DNA from: a virus
Reading direction: 5' to 3' (one strand)
Length of the DNA: 25,520 nucleotides
Virus record (IMG/VR): IMGVR_UViG_3300022725_000237
Span: 1 to 25,520 of that record
Below the pieces are notes generated by a model. That model ran no database searches, had not been told where the DNA came from, and was given only the letters and a program-made list of their open reading frames with translations. The first letter of the stretch is position 1; every line of letters starts with the position of its first letter. A program made the position numbers and the translations under genes. Shown in pieces: positions 6,217-24,529 of the stretch.

Positions 6217-8351
6217 TATTTCACCCTCGCCATGTCGGTGGATTTGGCTTTACCCAAACGGGCAAGAACCGTATCCCGGTCAAAAGAAAGACCGAATTCA
6301 CCGTTTTCCAGACCACCGTTTAGACCCATCCCATTCCCCATACGCACCCGGTATTGCCCCGGTGCGTAAGAAACAAGGACGGCGTGGCGTTTGAAATAAT
6401 CAACCGGCACGGCTTTACCGTCGCCCCAAGTGGGCTGGACACCCCCGATTGAAAACGCCTGCAAATCTTCCTCGCTCAGGGTGTCCATGAATTTTTCAAA
6501 TTCATCTTGCTTCATGCCCCGCACTGGCGGGAAAATCCTTTGATCTTTCCACTCGACCATGCCCCCGGTGACGCGATCCAGCATGTCTTCAAATAGGTCT
6601 TGGTTAAATGCCTCACTCTGACGGCCTGTTCTGGCGGTTTCTCGTGCATATAAAGACAGGGCTGACTGTGTCATTAGGGCTTGTTGTTCACGCGATGCGC
6701 TTAAGGCCGTGTCAAAATATTCATAAGCCGTGCGTGACCAGTCAACCGGCTTGGGCTTCAGCTTGGGATCAGCCGCCAGAATTTGTTCACTCTCCAGCAA
6801 GTCGCTAGCCAATTGTGGATCCTCAACTGACAAACGTGCAGCAACGGCGAAGGCAGGCTGTTTCGGGGCCAGTTTTTGGGAAAGGCTGCGCATGTGATTA
6901 GCCCCGACACCGGAATGCAAGGCTGCCAGGATTTGTGTTTTTCCCGCCGCATCGCTGTTTGCCAGCATATTTTCAATCTGATTAATTTCACCACCGGTGA
7001 AGGGCAGGGCATCAACCCCGTAGGTTTCTTTCACTTTCAAGGCCGCGCGATTGCGTTGACGCATTTGGGGGATCAACTGATCGGGTTTGGAAAAATCCAA
7101 TTGTGCCGGGGCCTCAACAGCGCCGACATCAATTGCATGGCCCAGTGCGTCTTTTTCCAGGGCGCTGCGCGTGTGGGCCGCGGTGCGCTCCAATCGCCCT
7201 AACAGGCTTGCGGACCGTTTTGTTTGTTTGCCTTGTGACAGTTTTTCCAAAACGCTTTGTTGCGTGTGCGGCGGTTGCTTTGCAAATGCCTGTATGTAGT
7301 CGCGGTCAGCAAGCGCCGCGTCCAGTTGCGCCTCCCACTTCGTGCCCTTGATTTCATCGCGCAACCCTTCCAGCCCTCTGGGTTCATATCCTTTTTCAAT
7401 AACGGAAATAACAGCAGCCGTTTTTTGCCCAAGTTCTCGGTCAAGGACTTTACGATCAGCAACCTTGCTTGCCAGATCGCCTTCCAGACGGGCAACGATC
7501 CGGTCCTTCAGGTCCGGGTCCATGGATTTCTGTGTTTTCTTGAAACGGGCAATGTAATCTTTCCCGGCTTCCAACCCCTGACCGTCCAGTGTGCGTTCAA
7601 AGTCACCCAAAACCGTTTGTTTTTCACCTTCATCACGCAGGTGTGTGCGCATGCGCACGGCGCGTTCAGCACTGACACGGCCATTGTCAACCGCCTCGCT
7701 CAGACTGCCATCAAAACGGGCAAAGGCTTCTTGGGCGCTCTGGGTATCACCACGCCGCCAGGCATTTTCATAATCCTGTCCAAATGCTTCCAGCCCGCTC
7801 AGGATCGTAACTTGCTGTTTTTCAATTTCACGCTTCTGAAATGTCTTGTTAATTTGGCGCAGCTTTTCACCACGGCGCGCCATAAGCTCCAGTTGCAGCG
7901 CCGGGCGCAGGTTTTCTGGTGCGGTTTTCAATAATTTCTCAGAATATGCCGAAAATGCCGTTGTAAAACCGTTCGGGTCAGCATCATGTTTTTGCTGATA
8001 CTTGTCCGCCTCCTGACGGATGTCCAGGCCAAGTGCGGTCAGATAACTTTGTTCCGCCCCACGATTAAACGCCGCCCCGGCAACGGTATCATTATCCTCG
8101 CGCAAGGCGAGTGATGTACCGTTTTGAACAGCTTGCAACCCGGCTTTGGTGCCAGCCGCAGCTTGTTTTGTTTTGATCTTTTGTTCTGTTTCCTTAAGCT
8201 GACCAAGGGCATATTTATGTAGCAGGCTACTGCCCATGTTCAACAGGCTGGGACCTACGCCGCCGCCGCCACCTTGGGCACGTTGCACACGCGCGGTGCC
8301 TACACCACGAAAATCAGGGACCTGCCCGCGGATATTTCTGAAACCACTCAT
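6216..8351 (-). CDS. Internal virion protein, T7 gp15-like
   Basis: About 711 residues, close to the size of T7 gp15 (747). The start is ATG 8351, which overlaps the upstream TGA (TGATG) and follows an AAAGG site; a TTG one codon earlier is less likely. After a glycine-rich N-terminus (QGGGGGVGPS) the protein is almost wholly alpha-helical and charged, with many Q, K, E and A residues, as expected for an ejected core protein. It has no catalytic motif that I can recognise. It lies between the gp14-like and gp16-like genes, which is the T7 order, and this position is the main support for the call. It probably forms part of the internal core and the periplasmic tube during DNA entry. Confidence 0.65.
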   Translation of the reverse strand: MSGFRNIRGQVPDFRGVGTARVQRAQGGGGGVGPSLLNMGSSLLHKYALGQLKETEQKIKTKQAAAGTKAGLQAVQNGTSLALREDNDTVAGAAFNRGAEQSYLTALGLDIRQEADKYQQKHDADPNGFTTAFSAYSEKLLKTAPENLRPALQLELMARRGEKLRQINKTFQKREIEKQQVTILSGLEAFGQDYENAWRRGDTQSAQEAFARFDGSLSEAVDNGRVSAERAVRMRTHLRDEGEKQTVLGDFERTLDGQGLEAGKDYIARFKKTQKSMDPDLKDRIVARLEGDLASKVADRKVLDRELGQKTAAVISVIEKGYEPRGLEGLRDEIKGTKWEAQLDAALADRDYIQAFAKQPPHTQQSVLEKLSQGKQTKRSASLLGRLERTAAHTRSALEKDALGHAIDVGAVEAPAQLDFSKPDQLIPQMRQRNRAALKVKETYGVDALPFTGGEINQIENMLANSDAAGKTQILAALHSGVGANHMRSLSQKLAPKQPAFAVAARLSVEDPQLASDLLESEQILAADPKLKPKPVDWSRTAYEYFDTALSASREQQALMTQSALSLYARETARTGRQSEAFNQDLFEDMLDRVTGGMVEWKDQRIFPPVRGMKQDEFEKFMDTLSEEDLQAFSIGGVQPTWGDGKAVPVDYFKRHAVLVSYAPGQYRVRMGNGMGLNGGLENGEFGLSFDRDTVLARLGKAKSTDMARVK

Positions 8352-10720: not shown

Positions 10721-11290
10721 TCACCCTCGCGCGCCGATCAGCAAATTGCTTTCAATAACGTCTCCGGGGGCTTCCTGGCTGTCGATAATCTTCGCAGCGG
10801 AAAAGGCTTTCTCCGCCAACTGCGCCATATCTTTCATCTTGCTGGAACTATCCGTGATCGGGATTGCGAATTCCGCTTTAAGGTGGGCAATCAACAACTG
10901 GGCAAACCAGGGCGGAAAGTTTTCTTCCGGTGCCCGAAAGATATAACGCACAATGATATCGCTATTGTCTGTGTGCAGCCGTTTTTCCTGTATGCGATAA
11001 TTCGCCCCACGGCTCTCGCCTTGATCCCCAGCCGCCAGAATTCTGAGAAAATCGACGGGGAGTTGATAGGCATATTTAAAACCGGCGATGGGTTCAACCA
11101 CCAACCGGTTCAGGCGCATTTCGGCCGTGGCAAAGTTCCACGGGTAGGAAGAAAGCAAACTATCGCGCACCCCTTCATAAAGGTTGCTTGAAACTTCACC
11201 TTCTGCCGTTCCCTCGTCGAAAGAGGAAATACTGTTTGCTCCCAGCCCCAAAAGGGCCCGTGAACACATTGCCACGTCCGATAATGCCAT
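10721..11290 (-). CDS. Tail tubular protein A (T7 gp11-like adaptor)
   Basis: 189 residues, against 196 for T7 gp11. ATG 11290 follows the upstream TAA by one base, with a GAGGAA ribosome site. Recognisable features are the N-terminal ALSDVAMCSRALLGLGANSI helix, the strongly conserved SSYPWNFA motif (residues about 47-54) followed by R-L-N-R-L, and the YQLPVDFLRIL segment. These are the marks of the gp11/tail tubular A family, which forms a ring between the portal and the nozzle. The partner gp12-like gene is immediately downstream. Confidence 0.85.
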   Translation of the reverse strand: MALSDVAMCSRALLGLGANSISSFDEGTAEGEVSSNLYEGVRDSLLSSYPWNFATAEMRLNRLVVEPIAGFKYAYQLPVDFLRILAAGDQGESRGANYRIQEKRLHTDNSDIIVRYIFRAPEENFPPWFAQLLIAHLKAEFAIPITDSSSKMKDMAQLAEKAFSAAKIIDSQEAPGDVIESNLLIGARG

Positions 11291-13602: not shown

Positions 13603-13811
13603 ATCAAGCCCCTCGCGTTGGCTGTTAAACAACCGTCACCAAAAGGGCTTTCTACGACCCCACTGGCGGCGGGAGGGTAGAAACCTAACACGAGATAGGC
13701 GGACTTATTCCCCCGAAGGGTCTTGTATTCGTCGCCCTCCCGCCATAGCGGGCATAATAAATCCGGGCTGTCGTGCCGGATAGACGCTCGTGTATAAGAG
13801 GTTTCTACGCC
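13599..13811 (-). CDS. icd/Ash-like overlapping leader frame
   Basis: A 70-codon open frame runs through the whole C4-like RNA and stops at TGA 13601..13599, overlapping the antirepressor ATG (ATGA). Recognisable peptide stretches are RHDSPDLLCPLWREGDEYKT, GNKSAYLVLGFYPPAASG and VVESPFGDGCLTANARGLI, which I recall from proteins annotated Icd-like/Ash-family upstream of antirepressors. No ATG is present in this frame; the only usual alternative start is GTG 13691, which would give 30 residues. In phage P1, translation of ant is coupled to the frame before it (icd/orfx). The peptide conservation may simply reflect conserved RNA pairing, so production of a protein is uncertain. Confidence 0.4.
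   Translation of the reverse strand, partial: GVETSYTRASIRHDSPDLLCPLWREGDEYKTLRGNKSAYLVLGFYPPAASGVVESPFGDGCLTANARGLI
13649..13677 (-). promoter_or_regulatory. C4 RNA target sites (a and b) ahead of the antirepressor
   Basis: CCCTCCCGCC (13677..13668) is perfectly complementary to the C4 segment 13744..13735. CGTAGAAA (13656..13649) repeats the 5' strand of the C4 closing stem and can pair with its TTTCTAC strand (13683..13677). Pairing would hide the region where translation of the leader frame must start and, by coupling, shut off the antirepressor. Confidence 0.55.
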
Positions 13812-14037: not shown

Positions 14038-14065
14038 TTGATTTGTTCCCCAAATGTGGTACATT
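14038..14065 (+). promoter_or_regulatory. Promoter and operator of the DinJ/YafQ operon
   Basis: TTGATT (14038-14043), 16-bp spacer, TACATT (14060-14065), with the antitoxin ATG 20 bases further on. The inverted repeat AATGT-GGT-ACATT (14053-14065) covers the -10 box and is a natural operator for autorepression by DinJ or the DinJ-YafQ complex. Confidence 0.5.
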
Positions 14066-14084
14066 ACAAGAAAGGAGATACGTC

Positions 14085-14348
14085 ATGACTAAAACAGAAA
14101 CAATTCGTGCCCGCGTGGAACCGCAGCTCAAGCACGAAGCCGAACAGGTCTTCGCAGCTCTCGGTATGTCTGCCACACAGGCCATTACACTGTTTTATAA
14201 ACAGGTCAGCCTTCATCACGGGATTCCTTTTGAGGTTAAAATCCCCAACACGCAGACCTTGGCCGCAATCCGTGAAGCCGAACAAAAAGATAGCTTGACC
14301 CGTTTTGGCAGCGTCAAAGACTTGATGGCCGACAGTGTCGATGCGTGA
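14085..14348 (+). CDS. dinJ: Antitoxin of the DinJ/RelB family
   Basis: 87 residues. ATG 14085 has a strong AAAGGAGA site (14071-14078); an upstream in-frame ATG at 14043 lacks one. The N-terminus (TKTETIRARVEPQLKHEAEQ) is the ribbon-helix-helix DNA-binding part, with alternating strand residues followed by the FAALGMSATQAITLFYKQV helix typical of DinJ. HHGIPFEVKIPN begins the C-terminal toxin-wrapping region. It neutralises the YafQ toxin encoded downstream and represses its own promoter. The genes overlap by 8 bases. The pair is on the opposite strand to every complete neighbour, which indicates an acquired cassette. Confidence 0.9.
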   Translation: MTKTETIRARVEPQLKHEAEQVFAALGMSATQAITLFYKQVSLHHGIPFEVKIPNTQTLAAIREAEQKDSLTRFGSVKDLMADSVDA

Positions 14349-14610
14349 AATACGAACCACATCCCAATTCAGAAAAGACCTGAAAAAGGCAAAAAAACGT
14401 CAAAAGGACCTGGACAAGCTTGAAGCCATTCTTGACAAGTTGGTTGCAAGTGAGACCCTGGAACCTCACAATAGACCACATCCCCTTTCCGGCAACTGGA
14501 AGCCCTGCTGGGAATGCCATATTGAACCGGATTGGCTTCTCATCTGGGATGAGGATGAAACTTCGATCATCCTCATCAGAACCGGCACACATTCAGACCT
14601 TTTTGCCTGA
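14341..14610 (+). CDS. yafQ: mRNA-cleaving toxin YafQ
   Basis: 89 residues from ATG 14341; a GTG two codons earlier is possible but less likely. The protein keeps the full YafQ active-site set at a constant offset of three from E. coli YafQ: H47 (HPLSG), H60, D64, W65 (HIEPDWLLIW), H84 and F88 (TGTHSDLF). It should therefore be an active ribosome-dependent endoribonuclease of the RelE superfamily. With the overlapping antitoxin gene it forms a type II toxin-antitoxin module. In a prophage it may stabilise the element or act against other phages. No truncation or missing residue is visible. Confidence 0.93.
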   Translation: MREIRTTSQFRKDLKKAKKRQKDLDKLEAILDKLVASETLEPHNRPHPLSGNWKPCWECHIEPDWLLIWDEDETSIILIRTGTHSDLFA

Positions 14611-17626: not shown

Positions 17627-18091
17627 CTAATCTCGGGTTTCCTTTAGCATCAACCATTCTGACCAAATTCCGCAATGGTTTAAAAATCTATTTAAAACAG
17701 ATAGATGCCAGCGTTTCATTGTTAAGCGACAATAGAGTTGGTACGGCGTGATGATGTGGCGCGAACGAATGCCAATTGTGCGTTTGACGATTTCAACACA
17801 GGTACATAATCCGATAGGGGCAATGGTCTTCGGTGTTTCGGCAATGGTCACAGGAACCACATGGCAACCGTGCTTTCGGTAATAAATTTGTGGATCAAAC
17901 GCGACATTGCGATTTTGCGGATCGCTGGTCCAAATTTCCAGTTGGCGCCCTAAAGGTTCGATCATGACCCACTGATCCCCATGGCGCAACCAGATCAGAC
18001 AATGTCGAAACCCGGGGCGCAGGAAATTGGCCCACCATTCCTCAACATTGCCATGAAAAACAACCAAAGCCTGAGCGTCTGCGCGCTTCAT
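17627..18091 (-). CDS. Putative permuted papain-like (NlpC/P60-type) cysteine hydrolase
   Basis: 154 residues, ATG 18091 overlapping the upstream stop (ATGA) with an AGGTG site. The order of candidate catalytic residues is His first (GFRHCLIWLRHGDQWVMIEP, H30) then Cys (LCTCVEIVKRTIGI, C98, with E100). This fits circularly permuted papain-like folds such as LRAT/YaeF/YiiX, where H precedes a (N/T)-C-(E/V) helix. RHIITPYQLYCRL follows the Cys helix, as in similar proteins often found between phage terminase and portal genes. Possible roles are wall degradation during entry or amidase/protease activity. The fold is inferred by eye only. Confidence 0.45.
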   Translation of the reverse strand: MKRADAQALVVFHGNVEEWWANFLRPGFRHCLIWLRHGDQWVMIEPLGRQLEIWTSDPQNRNVAFDPQIYYRKHGCHVVPVTIAETPKTIAPIGLCTCVEIVKRTIGIRSRHIITPYQLYCRLTMKRWHLSVLNRFLNHCGIWSEWLMLKETRD

Positions 18092-18534
18092 AATTGCACC
18101 TGATAGTACTCATCATAACCGCTTTGCCAGTCGGCGGTGGTTTTGCATTTTCGACAAACAAAAATCCCTTTATGGGGTGGTTCAAACTCCTTACGACACT
18201 TCAAGCATGGGCGCTTGTTCGGGGGCTGCACAGGGGGACTGGTGTGGGTATGGACCAGCTTTCGAACCTTCTCAAAAACCCATTGTAGTTGAAGATTTCC
18301 GCTTAGGTCTTGGCGAAACGTTTTTATTGTCGCATGGACGCTTTGCTGGGAACGGCCAAAAAAAGAACCGATATTGGTTTCTGTCATGCGCAATTCTTCG
18401 ACCAATGCCAGCATTATGGCACCGCGCCATTGGACTGCATCCCGTGTCTTAATCCGGTTTTTAAGAAGTTGCACGCTCAAACCGGATCTACGCGAAACAG
18501 CGCCCAAAAAATCATCAAAGAACTTATCATCCAT
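18088..18534 (-). CDS. DnaA-domain-IV-like HTH plus zinc-ribbon protein
   Basis: 148 residues, ATG 18534 with an AGGAG site, just after the large terminase. Residues about 30-75 (RDAVQWRGAIMLALVEELRM, then TNIGSFFGRSQQSVHATI) follow the DnaA C-terminal DNA-binding pattern 'R...A..L...L...IG..FG-R....V..A'. The C-terminus has four cysteines spaced as a zinc ribbon (C110, C113, C127, C130) around a KEFEPPHKGIF linker. It lacks the AAA+ part of DnaA, so it is not an initiator. It may bind DNA for packaging or late regulation. Its position in the late operon suggests the former. Confidence 0.6.
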   Translation of the reverse strand: MDDKFFDDFLGAVSRRSGLSVQLLKNRIKTRDAVQWRGAIMLALVEELRMTETNIGSFFGRSQQSVHATIKTFRQDLSGNLQLQWVFEKVRKLVHTHTSPPVQPPNKRPCLKCRKEFEPPHKGIFVCRKCKTTADWQSGYDEYYQVQL

Positions 18535-18543
18535 TTGCCACTC

Positions 18544-20019
18544 CTATCCCAATGGGTTGAAATCTGTACTTGCCATCATTGGCCGGTGCCCCATGACCTG
18601 TTGCTGGCGCCGCCCCATAACGGCGGCATACTCACCACCACCTAGAACGCCATATTGCAAGGCGTCGTGCGGGTGGGAATACTCGTTTTTTTCTGGTTTA
18701 TCGTCATAGGTGACGGAACCACCTTGCAGTTTTTTATATCGATACCCATCGTTAAATCCGCGGCGAAGGATGATGCATTTCGGCGACAGGAAAAACCGGG
18801 GTTTCCGCCCTTCAATCAGCTCGTTCAATTGATTACCAACGGCGTCAAGACGGGGCTGAATGTTATTGGTGGGGGCCGGGCGGATGCGCAGGCCAGTTTC
18901 TTTTTCAACAATTTGCTTCCAGGCCAGGTCGTCTTCACTTCCGCCAAAGTCGGCAGACGGGTCGCACCAAGGGGCAAACAGTCGGGCACCAGGGAAATCC
19001 TTATGTATTTTTTGATTTAACTCCCGTCCGAACGGGGTTGCCGTTATGTGTCCGGGGATTAATTCATCCAGACAGCGCCACTGTCCGTCTGCCAGTTGCT
19101 GAAGGAAGATCGCCGCCGGTGTGTTTCCCGCGTCCATGCCAATAATCAAAGGCAGTTCAGGGATAAACGGCAAATCGTGTTCGGCGACGTGTAGCTGATC
19201 GTTGAAGTTCTCATAGACGGGTTTTCCTTTTCGGGAGTAACCGAACAGGTTTAGGATCATCCGCCGGATGTACCAATCCTGCTTACCTTTGATTTGTTTG
19301 GCGTAATAGTCACTGGGGAGGTTGCCGAGGTTTTCCGCAGCTGGGTTGACCTGGTATTGTCCATCTCCGATCTTAATCATGGCACCCGGCTGTTGGTAAA
19401 ACTCCAGCGACGTAGCGCGGTTTTTCACAAACCGATCATACACCCAGTTGTCATATGAGGGCGCGTTGCAATCCGCCCAGACACCGGACCACCGGCACCC
19501 GCCATGGGCTTTGGACGGATAACGACCACAGCGCCCCGATACCCAGTCCAGAACGTCAGGATCCAGTGTGTCCGCCTCGTTCAGATAGGCACCGGTACCT
19601 TCCCAGCCGCGCATCACGCTTTCTACACTGTGCTCGCCCAGGGCGATAAATTCGACCGTCAGGTGGAACTCACCAATATCGCCGCCCAAATCAAACAGAA
19701 TTTCATGGCTCGCCGGTTCGCCATTCCCGCCACCAGCCCACTTGCCCATGGTCTTGGGAAACCAGGTCAACCAGGATTTGATGGTGGTTTTTGCAAGGTT
19801 TCGGTAAGTGTCGCGGATAACAGCAAACTTTGCATACCGGCGCCCGTCGATGGGGCTGCGCGGCTGCAACAGCCCCTTGTTGATCATGTCAAACAGGCAG
19901 GCCGAGGTCTTGCCCGACCCGATCGGCCCCATGATCATCCGGGTTTCGCCTTTTGACGCCATGAACTTGGCGGCAACAGGTCCAGCCGGTTTTAATTGCA
20001 ACGTAACGGGACCACTCAT
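18544..20019 (-). CDS. Terminase large subunit (DNA packaging ATPase/nuclease)
   Basis: About 491 residues from ATG 20019, which overlaps the stop of the small upstream ORF (ATGA) and has a TAGGGG site; a longer frame to 20193 overlaps that ORF and starts with low-complexity sequence. The ATPase domain has Walker A GPIGSGKT (31-38) and a Walker B-like AYLNEAD (144-150). The nuclease domain has IIGMDAGNTP (D296), CDPSAD (D353, D357) and SHPHDALQYGVL (D452), the three acidic positions expected of an RNase-H-like terminase nuclease. It pumps DNA through the portal and cuts concatemers. Confidence 0.92.
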   Translation of the reverse strand: MSGPVTLQLKPAGPVAAKFMASKGETRMIMGPIGSGKTSACLFDMINKGLLQPRSPIDGRRYAKFAVIRDTYRNLAKTTIKSWLTWFPKTMGKWAGGGNGEPASHEILFDLGGDIGEFHLTVEFIALGEHSVESVMRGWEGTGAYLNEADTLDPDVLDWVSGRCGRYPSKAHGGCRWSGVWADCNAPSYDNWVYDRFVKNRATSLEFYQQPGAMIKIGDGQYQVNPAAENLGNLPSDYYAKQIKGKQDWYIRRMILNLFGYSRKGKPVYENFNDQLHVAEHDLPFIPELPLIIGMDAGNTPAAIFLQQLADGQWRCLDELIPGHITATPFGRELNQKIHKDFPGARLFAPWCDPSADFGGSEDDLAWKQIVEKETGLRIRPAPTNNIQPRLDAVGNQLNELIEGRKPRFFLSPKCIILRRGFNDGYRYKKLQGGSVTYDDKPEKNEYSHPHDALQYGVLGGGEYAAVMGRRQQQVMGHRPMMASTDFNPLG

Positions 20020-20267
20020 ACCCCTAACCCCTTTTTCCCAGAATGAAAAATACGATTTTTCAGATTTTGAAACGTTGAAATTTCTTGGATAGAGGGGGAG
20101 GGAGCGGGCAGGTGCGGAAGGCCGGAAGGGGGGGTGGGCCGCGCGGAGGCGACTTTCACCCGGAAAAAACCGCTTTCCAGTGCCTCGGTCCACTGATCGG
20201 GTATCAGTCGTCCTTTGCGCGAAAGGCCGCAGAAATCCTTAAGTTTTGCTAATCTGTCCAACTTCAT
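20016..20267 (-). CDS. Small ORF coupled to terminase
   Basis: 83 residues, ATG 20267 with a GGAG site nine bases upstream. The stop TGA 20018..20016 overlaps the terminase ATG, so the two appear translationally coupled, which is the best evidence that it is real. The N-terminal half (LDRLAKLKDFCGLSRKGRLI, PDQWTEALESGFF) is ordered, the rest proline/serine rich. I recognise no family. It might be a terminase accessory protein. Confidence 0.55.
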   Translation of the reverse strand: MKLDRLAKLKDFCGLSRKGRLIPDQWTEALESGFFRVKVASARPTPPSGLPHLPAPSPSIQEISTFQNLKNRIFHSGKKGLGV

Positions 20268-20309: not shown

Positions 20310-20849
20310 TTATTCACTTTCCATATCGTCGTGATCGATCACCGTTCCGTCGAAGCAATAACCTTCTTCCTCGTCCTCGCGATCGGCGTCGGCGATCATC
20401 TTGGCAATCTCCGGCGAGGCCACCAATTGAAGCGCTACCGCACCGCTGCCTTCCATCTGGATTGCCTGCGGCTGTTTCTGGTGAACGTACGGCGCCAGTT
20501 CACGCGCGGCCTGAAGCTGGAGCTTGAAAGCCTCCAGATTTTTACAGCCCAGTTCCTTTGCCAGATCTTCCAACGGCCTGGAATAGACCGAGGCCAGAAC
20601 CTCCAGCGGTGATCGGTGTTGCTTCAGGATGAATTCCTGCCATTCCTTGGTCCGTTTGTTGCGCGATCCTGCCGGGCGGCCCGGCCCTTTGCGCTTCTGC
20701 GCCACCAGTTTGTCCCGCCCTGTGGCCTGCACATCCGTCCCCGGTGCCGACAACGGCAGCAACGCCAGCTGCTCGCTCTCATCCGTCGGCGGCTCTCCCG
20801 CACCAACGGTTTCAATCGCGCTTGAAAGACCTGTTTTTTCCTCAGACAT
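20310..20849 (-). CDS. Probable terminase small subunit
   Basis: 179 residues, ATG 20849, with only a weak TTGGGTG site upstream. The first 50 residues are acidic and disordered. The core starts GPGRPAGSRNKRTKEWQEF (basic, AT-hook-like), then SPLEVLASVYSRPLEDLAKE, LGCKNLEAFKLQLQAARELA and PYVHQKQP. This is the pattern that I recall for the protein preceding the large terminase in alphaproteobacterial podoviruses. It would recognise the packaging site. The repeat-rich region just upstream (20850..21237) is a natural target. The C-terminus is acidic (DADREDEEEG). Confidence 0.6.
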   Translation of the reverse strand: MSEEKTGLSSAIETVGAGEPPTDESEQLALLPLSAPGTDVQATGRDKLVAQKRKGPGRPAGSRNKRTKEWQEFILKQHRSPLEVLASVYSRPLEDLAKELGCKNLEAFKLQLQAARELAPYVHQKQPQAIQMEGSGAVALQLVASPEIAKMIADADREDEEEGYCFDGTVIDHDDMESE

Positions 20850-20896
20850 GAATAAACACCCAATATTTTATTTATTTTCAAAGACTTAAATCATTT

Positions 20897-20934
20897 CCTA
20901 ACCACGGTTAGGTCTTGGTTAGGTTTTGGTTAGG
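20897..20934. repeat. Left outer iterons, GGTTAGG at 11-bp period
   Basis: GGTTAGG starts at 20906, 20917 and 20928, exactly 11 bases apart, so the copies face the same side of the helix. The first copy also pairs with CCTAACC at 20897 as a 7-2-7 palindrome. Bases 20917-20934 match the reverse complement of 21131-21148 at 17 of 18 positions. Confidence 0.85.
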
Positions 20935-20992
20935 TTTTTATATCTATATAACCTATTGATTTAATTGATTTATATGTCTGGAAAGGGGCATT

Positions 20993-21007
20993 CCTAACTT
21001 TCTAACC
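20993..21007. repeat. Left inner arm of the nested inverted repeat
   Basis: CCTAACTTTCTAACC matches the reverse complement of 21061-21075 at 14 of 15 positions, enclosing a 53-base loop. Confidence 0.85.
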
Positions 21008-21014
21008 GTTTTTT

Positions 21015-21053
21015 CGCGCGTATATACGCGTACGCACGCGCGTACATGCGCAT
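21015..21053. repeat. 39-bp alternating pyrimidine/purine core
   Basis: Every step alternates pyrimidine and purine, starting CGCGCGTATATACGCG and ending ATGCGCAT. The tract contains the perfect palindromes CGCGTATATACGCG (21017-21030) and ATGCGCAT (21046-21053). Such sequence is prone to Z-DNA or cruciform formation. CGCAT-C-ATGCG (21049-21059) continues the symmetry. Confidence 0.85.
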
Positions 21054-21060
21054 CATGCGA

Positions 21061-21085
21061 GGTTAGAAAGTTAGAAAGTTAGAAA
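21061..21085. repeat. Right inner arm with three tandem GTTAGAAA repeats
   Basis: GTTAGAAA occurs at 21062, 21070 and 21078, a perfect 8-bp tandem triplet. The first copies form the right arm that pairs with 20993-21007. Confidence 0.9.
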
Positions 21086-21119
21086 AGGGGTTAAGTCGTT
21101 GATATTAAATATTTATTCG

Positions 21120-21148
21120 TCTAACCAGTTTCTAACCAAAACCTAACC
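21120..21148. repeat. Right outer iterons, YCTAACC at 11-bp period
   Basis: TCTAACC, TCTAACC and CCTAACC start at 21120, 21131 and 21142. They are inverted copies of the left GGTTAGG set, again 11 bases apart. Confidence 0.85.
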
Positions 21149-21237
21149 AGAGGCGGTTGGAAACGGAGGTCCACGACTTGACCAGCCCCAATCCTCGCGC
21201 GTTTTTTTTGTTTGGTCAAGTGGGTCGGGGGAAAAAA

Positions 21238-23190
21238 TCACAGGAACTCCTCCGGGTCGGGGTTGGGGGGATTTTGAGTTCGGGCGGCTTCGCCGCGCTC
21301 ACTCGTTGTTTCCATGCCTGACGGCATGACGCTATCAAGGGCGACGGCAGCGACTTTTGTCGTCGCGCCACCGATATAGACTGCGGCCTTGGGAGCGAAT
21401 GCATTGGGCAAACGCAGGGCGGGCTGGCGCCACACCCCTTTCTTCCAGCGTGTATCCTTGAATAATTCATCCAGTCCGCGGTGCTTGTTGGCGATCATCA
21501 AAAACCATGGCTCGTCCATACCGATGCCGACTTCCTTAAGCTGGCCGATTTTCATGCCATGCATGCCCAGGGCACGTTGCGCATCCTTGTCCGGGAATTC
21601 GCCCGGCTGGCGCCCCCAGGCCTTCTCGATCAACTCCGCCACAGTCTGGCGCGAACCGCTGCGCCACGGATCAATCGTGGAGGTCAGGAGGTGGCGGATA
21701 AATTCATCCTCATCCTTGTCCGTATCCCCCCAGCTGACAATGTCCGATGCCTTGACCTGCGCCGCCCAGTCTGCCGCGCGTTCCGGCGGGACATGGCCGT
21801 CATAAAGGGCAAGGTCTGAGGCCGCCAGCAACGTGCCGTACTGGTCACAGGCCCGGCTGTCCAGCCCTTCCTTTTGCAAGGCCGCGCGGTATTGCTCCAA
21901 CGCCTGCGGCAAGCGCACCCAGCCGTCCACAACCCGGCGGAAGATGCGCCGCCCCAAATCTTTCATCCTTTTGGGGGATGTATTGGGCGGCTCGGAATTT
22001 AACAAATCCCCTAAATCCAACACCGCGATCCGACTTTTATCCGTCCCTTTTAACGCCGGGATCAACACGGAACTGTATAAAAACGGGCTGCGGATCAAAA
22101 ATTCATGTGATTTATGATCCTGCCCGCCGCGTGTCACCTTCCCCCCGCTGGAGGCATGACGCGCCAGCTTAATCACATTCTGAATGGCGCGGTCATCTTC
22201 CTCGGCCTCGCCCTCGTCAATCTTGACCGGCAGGCTGGCCGACCCCAACGTCTGCCAGATCGCCGCGGCCGTCGGGTCGGTGATCGACAGGCACATGTCA
22301 TTCAACAGGTTGTCGATTAACCGCTGAAGGGAGCTTTTGCCCGTCCCGGCACCGCCGCCTAACCAGCAATGCGGCCGCCATTCCAACGCACCACCCAGAT
22401 AGGCCGCACATATCCAGCTAAACAGCATATAGGCATCCAGATCATGGCGCTTCCAGTTCCAGGTGTTTAAGATATCCAGAACGGCCTGCGCAGGCCCGTC
22501 ACTGCCGGCGATTTGTCTGTCCATATGGGGCATCGGACCGGCCGGGGCAGCCGGATACACCGATCGCCCGATCACATCGGGTTTTAGGATCACACTCTCT
22601 TCCCAGCCGTCCGCAACCCGGTTGCCGTCTTCATCATACTGGGGGATCAGGATGATCTTGTCCCCGCAGTGCAAAATCAGTTCGTCATCTTCCCCACACC
22701 AGGCCCCGGCACCGCGCACCCGGTCTTTCGGGTCCCAGACGCCACGCTTCGCACAGGCAACCTGCAAATCTTCCACGACCTTCTCAGCTTGCCAACCGGT
22801 GACGATCCACTCGCCGTCTTCCATTTTCGCGCGTGGGTAATATTCGTACACCTTCCCCAATTGACGCCCAAACAGCGACGCAATATTATTTTTGGAATGC
22901 TCTTTCGCGCTCAGCTCACGCAGTTGGTTCAGCTCGTCCAGATAATAATACATACTGCCCTTCACGCCCAACGCCTTGACCGGCCAGCCGCGGATGTCAC
23001 CTTGCAGGCGCAGCCGCTGCGGGGGTAGATTATCTGTCCCGGTGCGTTGAGACGGCGCCGCGCTGTTACCCACCGGCGGGGCATCATCGATCGCACCGAA
23101 GTCCTGCTCATCCATTACCGCGGGCTGGGCGTCTTCCATCGCCTGGCGAATATCCACCACATTATCCGGGCGCGGATCGTCGTCACTCAT
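21238..23190 (-). CDS. P-loop replicative helicase (phage AAA+/SF3-like)
   Basis: 650 residues, ATG 23190 overlapping the upstream stop (ATGA). The first 60 residues are acidic and probably disordered. Residues about 60-270 form an alpha/beta N-domain of the type seen in DUF927-like phage helicases. The ATPase core has Walker A GGGAGTGKS (278-286), a Walker B-type PVKIDEGE (321-328) and a sensor-like RSPFLYSSVLIPAL (367-380) followed by DKSRI (384-388), where R387 may be the arginine finger. It follows the Toprim primase, so the pair probably unwinds and primes phage DNA for a host polymerase. The C-terminus is proline/threonine rich. Confidence 0.75.
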   Translation of the reverse strand: MSDDDPRPDNVVDIRQAMEDAQPAVMDEQDFGAIDDAPPVGNSAAPSQRTGTDNLPPQRLRLQGDIRGWPVKALGVKGSMYYYLDELNQLRELSAKEHSKNNIASLFGRQLGKVYEYYPRAKMEDGEWIVTGWQAEKVVEDLQVACAKRGVWDPKDRVRGAGAWCGEDDELILHCGDKIILIPQYDEDGNRVADGWEESVILKPDVIGRSVYPAAPAGPMPHMDRQIAGSDGPAQAVLDILNTWNWKRHDLDAYMLFSWICAAYLGGALEWRPHCWLGGGAGTGKSSLQRLIDNLLNDMCLSITDPTAAAIWQTLGSASLPVKIDEGEAEEDDRAIQNVIKLARHASSGGKVTRGGQDHKSHEFLIRSPFLYSSVLIPALKGTDKSRIAVLDLGDLLNSEPPNTSPKRMKDLGRRIFRRVVDGWVRLPQALEQYRAALQKEGLDSRACDQYGTLLAASDLALYDGHVPPERAADWAAQVKASDIVSWGDTDKDEDEFIRHLLTSTIDPWRSGSRQTVAELIEKAWGRQPGEFPDKDAQRALGMHGMKIGQLKEVGIGMDEPWFLMIANKHRGLDELFKDTRWKKGVWRQPALRLPNAFAPKAAVYIGGATTKVAAVALDSVMPSGMETTSERGEAARTQNPPNPDPEEFL

Positions 23191-23465
23191 GTAAAGCCCC
23201 CATCTATATATTGATCCAGGGCCGCCTGGATCATTTCCTTAAAAATATCGTCAATAATTTCCTGATGTGTCGCACTTGCCAGCCGGTCTTCATCTTCCAG
23301 AACCCACACCGCCGCCTGCGTCATGTAATCCGTCGGCATCAACAGCTTTTCCAGCACGGCCTTGGCGGTTTCCTCGTCCACCGGGCTGCACACCGTATGC
23401 TTCAACACGCCCCGGCACTTTGCTTGCGCAATTACCCAGGCGATTTGCTCAATCATGGTTTTCAT
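23187..23465 (-). CDS. Unknown 92-residue protein between primase and helicase
   Basis: ATG 23465 overlaps the primase stop and its own stop overlaps the helicase start (ATGA at both ends), so it is firmly part of the replication operon. It is mostly helical and acidic (EETAKAVLEKLLMPTDYM, HQEIIDDIFKEMIQAALDQY). No family is recognised. It might be a helicase-loading or primase-accessory factor, which is only suggested by its place. Confidence 0.7.
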   Translation of the reverse strand: MKTMIEQIAWVIAQAKCRGVLKHTVCSPVDEETAKAVLEKLLMPTDYMTQAAVWVLEDEDRLASATHQEIIDDIFKEMIQAALDQYIDGGFT

Positions 23466-24529
23466 CGCTTTTTTCCCAACAGCCAGTCGTTGAAATCCTT
23501 GTAGTGCGGGGGCGGGGGGAAGGGGATCACCGTGCGTTTCTGATGCAAAAAAACCTCCACTGCCGCGTCAAAGGCGACGTCTGCCTCTGACCCGTCCGCA
23601 TCGTTGTCCTTGCCCAGATAGACCGGGTCACAGACCTCCGGTAAAATGATGTTTTTCAGGTTGGCAACAGAAATCGTGCACCACACCCGCTTTTCAGGAC
23701 ATGCCATCACAATCGACAACGCATTTTCCGGCCCCTCGTGCAACACAATGGGGGACGGTGTGGTTTGATCCCTCAACGCCTTGCGCTCTGACCCCCGCCA
23801 CAAACGGATACAACCGCCATAGGCCTTGTAAGTCCCCAGTGTCAGTTTGGCGTCCTTGACGCCCTGCAATTTGATCACCTGCCCGTCCGCTTCACGCTGC
23901 AAATAGATGCGGTGAATGCCACACGGCTTGTTGTCGTTGCCCACAATCAGGGCAATCAACGCCGGATGCATCTTTTGGGTTTCACGGTGATAAACGGCGG
24001 GATGAAACCGCAAGGCGCGCGGCTGATATCCCAGTTTTTCCAAATCAATCCCGCGGCTTTTCAGATATAAATCCGCGGCCGTTGCGCGCAATCGCGGCTG
24101 GGCTTCTCCCCAAATCCGCATCGCCGCGCCATACCATTTGTTGTCCGGTTCCTTCGCCGCCTTTTTGCGTTGTTCGGCGGCCCGGCGCCGGGCATCTTCC
24201 ACGCGCTTGGGATCACCGGTTTCCAGTCCCAGATACTGCTTGGCCCAGGTTACGGCCTTGGCGATATCACCCCCGCATTCCGCCACCCGGATCAGCTCCA
24301 GCATGTCACCGGCCTCTCCGCTGGCGAAATCGGACCACACGCCGCGGCGCTTGCCCTTGCCGATGTTGATGGACATGGACGATCCTTTTTCGCCCCAGAC
24401 CGACCCGACACAATATTCTGTGCCGTGGCGCACCCCGTTGGGATACAGCCGGGAAGCCAGATTTTCCGCATCCGCCTTCAACATGTCGGCGATTTCAGAA
24501 ACATCGATATCGCGACCATTTCCGCCCAT
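23462..24529 (-). CDS. Toprim-domain DNA primase
   Basis: 355 residues, ATG 24529 one base after the stop of the 36-codon ORF. The N-terminal part (KRRGVWSDFASGEAGDMLEL) is the usual region before the catalytic core in phage primases, but the classic CHC2 zinc-finger cysteines are not evident. A basic linker (RRRAAEQRKKAAKE) leads to the core. Toprim motifs are LHEGPENALS (E265) and LGKDNDADGSEAD (D308, D310), and the C-terminus has the KDFNDWL motif typical of the group. It should make RNA primers and work with the helicase encoded downstream. Confidence 0.85.
   Translation of the reverse strand: MGGNGRDIDVSEIADMLKADAENLASRLYPNGVRHGTEYCVGSVWGEKGSSMSINIGKGKRRGVWSDFASGEAGDMLELIRVAECGGDIAKAVTWAKQYLGLETGDPKRVEDARRRAAEQRKKAAKEPDNKWYGAAMRIWGEAQPRLRATAADLYLKSRGIDLEKLGYQPRALRFHPAVYHRETQKMHPALIALIVGNDNKPCGIHRIYLQREADGQVIKLQGVKDAKLTLGTYKAYGGCIRLWRGSERKALRDQTTPSPIVLHEGPENALSIVMACPEKRVWCTISVANLKNIILPEVCDPVYLGKDNDADGSEADVAFDAAVEVFLHQKRTVIPFPPPPHYKDFNDWLLGKKR

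Follow-up and report, generated by a model that had tools for sequence, protein, structure and literature searches.

The non-coding region that follows the helicase gene of this phage is predicted to be its replication origin, of a type in which the replicative helicase also serves as initiator (probability about 0.83). Directly 3' of the primase–helicase cassette, short words are arranged in four arrays with a palindromic layout, the geometry of which is conserved in relatives while the word itself is not. The window, i.e., the whole stretch of DNA analysed, is a virus record of 25,520 bp, where the genes follow each other on the same strand in the order primase, a 92-residue frame, helicase, site, small protein, terminase large subunit (TerL), and late genes. 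Some 90 bp separate the helicase stop from the site on its 3' side; Table 1 gives the coordinates of the parts of the site and of the surrounding genes. The small protein falls outside the proposed origin.

Table 1. Parts of the predicted origin and neighbouring genes in the window.
Feature	Position	Strand	Remark
Lone CTAAC outside the arrays	20898..20902	-	Forms CTAACC-AC-GGTTAG with the next word
Outer array 1, GTTAG x3, 11-bp period	20907..20933	+	Words at 20907, 20918, 20929
AT-rich spacer, candidate unwinding stretch	20934..20993	.	73% AT over 20939-20990
Inner array 2, CTAAC x2, 8-bp period	20994..21006	-	Words at 20994, 21002
Alternating purine/pyrimidine tract, 39 bp, central	21015..21053	.	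Z-DNA-prone by sequence
Inner array 3, GTTAG x3, exact 8-bp period (GTTAGAAA x3)	21062..21082	+	Words at 21062, 21070, 21078
AT-rich spacer	21083..21120	.	71% AT over 21086-21120
Outer array 4, CTAAC x3, 11-bp period	21121..21147	-	Words at 21121, 21132, 21143
Primase, DUF7146 + Toprim	23462..24529	-	Precedes the helicase, in agreement with pri-rep-ori order
Helicase, 650 aa, SF3/D5-like fold	21238..23190	-	SaPI5 Rep relative by fold; candidate word-binding initiator
Small protein, GRPxGSxNKRT motif	20310..20849	-	Occupies the small-terminase position; first gene past the site
Terminase large subunit	18544..20193	-	Context; control protein in the covariation test

Direct reading and a repeat search identified 12 copies of GTTAG/CTAAC between positions 20898 and 21147 of the window, 11 of which are grouped into the four arrays. 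The order is three words at an 11-bp period, two at 8 bp, the 39-bp alternating purine/pyrimidine tract, three words at 8 bp, and three at 11 bp, and the periods are exact in outer and inner arrays alike. A perfect inverted repeat (18/18) has its arms at 20916–20933 and 21132–21149, and the arms of an inner one (20991–21007 and 21061–21077) match to 94%. The two spacers, each separating an outer from an inner array, have AT contents of 73% and 71%, compared with 47% for the window. The alternating tract is exactly 39 bp, whereas the longest such run in 20 shuffles of the whole window was 21, and a detector built for the layout scored the site at 16.8, to be compared with a maximum of 7.7 when the whole window was dinucleotide-shuffled 60 times and with 6.6 for the second-best peak in the window itself. 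A preceding sequence-only reading had described nested facing repeats in 20897–21148, an inner inverted repeat with an 8-bp tandem triplet, a central 39-bp alternating tract, and the absence of a coding frame, and all four descriptions hold, the site being located in the non-coding gap 20850–21237, which is bounded by the helicase stop on one side and by the next gene's start on the other. It had also described the outer arrays as 7-bp repeats with an 11-bp period; the period is correct, but there is no common 7-mer, since the left outer array carries GGTTAGG and the right one CTAACCA. The outer arrays have GGTTAG in common, the only 6-mer present in both of these 7-mers, and the unit common to all arrays is GTTAG. 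An Rfam search of the site gave no match, and a search of named phages for distant DNA similarity returned chance matches only.

In a Foldseek search, the structure model of the helicase (pLDDT 86, pTM 0.78) matched SaPI5 Rep (PDB code 7ola), D5, and the NrS-1 primase-helicase with E ≤ 1e-6, and it also resembles ASFV PrimPol. By fold class, the modelled helicase would thus belong to the SF3/D5 class, the self-loading type. Origins of PICI elements lie immediately 3' of rep and consist of an AT-rich region between two sets of iterons; a PICI origin segment replicates a plasmid, and the pri-rep-ori layout was reported as common to no other known replicon (PMC6092414). Both SaPI Rep and Cch2 act as initiators on iterons placed shortly after the initiator's own gene, the related Cch2 helicase recognizing short AAGTG iterons (PMC7581432). 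As for PICI and SaPI elements, the window has a primase gene, a gene for a putative initiator helicase of the same fold class as SaPI5 Rep, and the predicted origin 3' of the latter; short iteron sets flank a central region, and the words differ between elements. The order of primase followed by helicase is also present in the alphaproteobacterial relatives. Unlike PICIs, the carriers are not satellites; they are tailed phages that encode terminase, portal, and head proteins themselves. The site has four arrays in a dyad instead of two iteron sets, and its centre is an alternating GC-rich tract instead of AT-rich DNA, the AT-rich stretches being placed on either side, between the outer and inner arrays. 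Because TerL and other late genes are present, we do not assign the window to the PICIs, and owing to the tailed-phage carrier, the four-array dyad, and the alternating centre, the site is regarded as a variant of the PICI origin. The putative SCCmec origin used by Cch2 similarly combines a self-loading SF3-type helicase with downstream pentamer iterons (AAGTG), but there a single direct-repeat region is sufficient for binding, no four-array palindrome is present, and the DNA-binding domain is C-terminal (PMC7581432). No description of a four-array layout in phages was found in the open-access literature searched, although one elsewhere is possible. The alpha protein of satellite P4, with its ori and crr sites, is a primase-helicase that binds short iterons itself. 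Lambdoid O-protein origins also pair type-specific iterons with a cognate initiator beside AT-rich DNA, but there the initiator gene itself contains the iterons, and its product is not a helicase.

Relatives were retrieved with a helicase alignment as query, which gave 80 IMG/VR loci and 9 genome loci, with Sphingomonas, Sphingopyxis, Zavarzinia, and Rhodospirillales represented; an IMG/VR search with the single helicase protein gave no matches. Of 61 close loci (the window and two fecal phages counted), 55 have their top detector peak 3' of the helicase, with site scores of 10–18.5 and other peaks mostly below 8. A second high peak in locus L074 stems from a tandem repeat. Two of the six exceptions, L017 and L019, do have the layout, with GTTTG as the word; the detector leaves out two-letter words and missed it, and these sites were read by eye. 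No layout was seen in the available bases of L034 and L041, and the sequences of L053 and L054 end inside the helicase. In total, about 16 words were recorded (GTTAG, GTAAG, GTTTG, GTTAC, GTAAC, GTAGC, GTTGC, GTACC, GTTCC, GGAACC, GGTTCT, GTCGTG, GGTATG, GTGACG, GTCCC, and GTAAT). Over 49 non-redundant sites, words of the inner arrays are most often spaced by 8 bp (93 of 132 intervals) and those of the outer arrays by 11–12 bp (77 of 119), and the spacers of about 35 bp are 54% and 60% AT, compared with 36% for the loci. The words seem to change by steps, since L017 (3715–3990) and L019 (6890–7165) carry GGTTTGG in the inner arrays together with leftover GGTTAGG in the outer ones; these two-word origins look like intermediates in a word change. 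The sequence-only reading had named relatives that share both flanking genes as the place where loss of the repeats would speak against it; in those relatives the layout is present, with other words. The layout is absent from some helicase relatives, namely L062, L065, L076, L082, L088, and Bordetella and T5-size phages.

The link to helicases reappears when the site is searched for independently of them. With the inner arrays alone as query, one word at a time, the IMG/VR scan returned 16 stretches for GTTAG, at least 120 for GTTAC, and 32 for GTTGC, compared with 5 and 5 for two control words. Among the matches listed, an SF3 helicase is found within 4 kb in 84 of 128 non-control loci. In 75 of these 84, the site follows the helicase on its 3' side, at median distances of 208 bp (GTTAG), 112 bp (GTTAC), and 287 bp (GTTGC), again among the matches listed. 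The helicases fall into four families, namely the window type, D5_N/Pox_D5/DUF5906, VapE, and a DUF3854 fusion. The control words GATTG and GTATC were not free of such arrays, a few being located 3' of a helicase (L130 and one of L253–L257). As the controls thereby include a few real sites beside helicases, they overestimate the background, and the word repertoire is wider than that listed above. Some of the small contigs among the GTTAC matches may be satellites themselves, and one contig carries two GTTAC inner-array sites 1.7 kb apart (L144:9062–9158 and 10787–10883). Among cultured phages, the layout gives the highest peak over all of the sequence read in Serratia MQ-4, Pseudomonas ZRG1, Synechococcus MinM1 and S-H1, and Acinetobacter Acjo_20, and it is seen in weaker form in KLER1-1 and Bdellovibrio phi1422. 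GC skew turns less than 1 kb from the site only in MinM1 among the five isolates, and the window shows no turn. Of the two functions proposed in the sequence-only reading, a replication origin is favoured by the presence of the layout 3' of SF3-type helicases across unrelated phages, irrespective of whether a terminase gene follows, and by its agreement with published pri-rep-ori origins (PMC6092414).

The other proposed function was recognition by the small terminase. The site would then be a packaging start (cos or pac), and the terminase would be encoded by the next gene. In lambda, cos is located just before the small-terminase gene. A similar arrangement exists in the alphaproteobacterial group, where the site nearly always lies 120–240 bp before the gene of the small protein, followed by TerL, and this distance is kept despite up to 3.5 kb to the helicase (the site–helicase distance is 1.5–3.5 kb in some relatives); the small protein also has a basic GRPxGSxNKRT motif. 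The GGTTCT group (L004, L033, L042, L044, L045, L047, and L096) deviates, with about 780–790 bp from origin to small-protein gene. However, the site does not travel with the small-terminase gene. Distant loci have it after the helicase and before genes other than terminase, S-H1 likewise has it beside the helicase and not the terminase, and in Acjo_20 TerS is far away while the site is placed immediately 5' of the primase-helicase. In L089, a Rhodospirillales MAG, the helicase and a GTGACG origin (7760–8080) are followed by a resolvase-like frame, and the search of this genome found no TerL homologue, an empty search being weak evidence. The structure model of the small protein is of low confidence (pTM 0.37), and its alignment of 37 rows is too diverse for use as a scan query. 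Given the position of the site in these loci and the covariation between words and proteins, a packaging function is improbable.

With the other proteins held, partial Mantel coefficients between word and protein were 0.165 for the helicase (p 0.001), 0.146 for the primase (p 0.001), 0.073 for the small protein (p 0.035), and 0.031 for TerL (p 0.21), where the p-values derive from label shuffles that ignore phylogeny. The word thus covaries with helicase and primase, only weakly with the small protein, and not with TerL. The minimum number of word changes on the respective trees (14 words, 42 loci) is 16 for the primase, 17 for the helicase, and 20 for TerL. The helicase is the likely reader of the words. 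Helicase residues 76–150 show excess identity in pairs with the same word, but segments 151–232 and 481–555 match or exceed this stretch once all segments compete, and for that reason we do not assign a word-reading domain.

Covariation also bears on transcription control, in which the words would be operators of a phage regulator and/or part of a promoter for late transcription at the early–late boundary. The site does lie between replication and packaging genes, short words arranged in a dyad resemble operator arrays, and HTH genes are nearby. The nearby HTH protein family predicts the word with an AUC of 0.65, compared with 0.91 for the helicase, and hence does not track it. Furthermore, the dyad spans 250 bp with a fixed 8/35/11 geometry and a structural centre, and what the layout accompanies is the 3' end of the helicase gene and no particular downstream gene, which makes a regulatory role very unlikely. 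Even less can be said for a partition or centromere-like site of an extrachromosomal prophage. Arrays of short words could bind a ParB- or CopG-like protein, and some carriers encode ParB-domain proteins, but the genes identified in the window include none for partition, and among the carriers there are apparently integrated prophages.

For the predicted origin, a plausible sequence of events can be outlined. The helicase would bind the words as initiator, probably as two oppositely facing oligomers, one per half-site. It could then open the DNA at the AT-rich spacers and/or at the centre, and load itself, after which the DUF7146/Toprim primase would start synthesis in both directions.

The nature of the centre varies between hosts of the layout. 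We compared 72 non-redundant GTTAC cores among the matches listed. Next to genes that do not belong to the window's helicase family, alternating runs of at least 14 occur in 11 of 18 GC-rich cores but in 3 of 45 AT-rich ones, among the matches listed (Fisher p 1.3e-5, kinship among the GC-rich loci being ignored). The background frequency of such runs per 60 bp is 0.8% in GC-rich and 0.2% in AT-rich loci, and the GTTAC cores of AT-rich loci are 75% AT. The frequency of alternating runs in GC-rich cores, with AT-rich cores elsewhere, suggests that the tract stands in for the AT-rich element. On these sequence comparisons we tentatively consider it possible that, in GC-rich genomes, the tract takes over the function of an AT-rich unwinding element. 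The tract might flip to Z-DNA and absorb negative supercoiling, and in this way provide an opening or a structural signal without AT-rich DNA.

Compared with the satellite origins, the new elements are the presence in tailed phages, the four-array palindrome, the repeated change of word, and a centre made of AT-rich DNA in AT-rich phages but of alternating purine/pyrimidine sequence in GC-rich ones, unrelated helicase families included. An origin layout described as confined to satellites is thereby extended to complete tailed phages, which bears on the source of the satellites' origins. Word arrays with 8/35/11 geometry 3' of an SF3 helicase provide a sequence-level predictor of origins in many uncultured and cultured phages. 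The approximately 16 pairs of word and helicase, with two-word intermediates among them, form a natural series for studying change of initiator specificity, and whether Z-DNA-prone sequence may help to open an origin becomes directly testable.

Three further features of the window were recorded. A 148-residue protein encoded after TerL (18088–18534, minus strand) has a cysteine-rich C-terminal part and a weak match to a DnaA domain IV-like helix-turn-helix, with an E-value of 4.5e-4 that does not reach Pfam's cut-off. Positions 13660–13744 on the minus strand match the Rfam family sRNA-Xcc1 with 64.8 bits, above the gathering score, here in a phage. Finally, two adjacent frames at 14043–14610 resemble, by eye, a RelB/DinJ-type antitoxin and a YafQ/RelE-type toxin, and are located on the plus strand, opposite to the neighbouring late genes.
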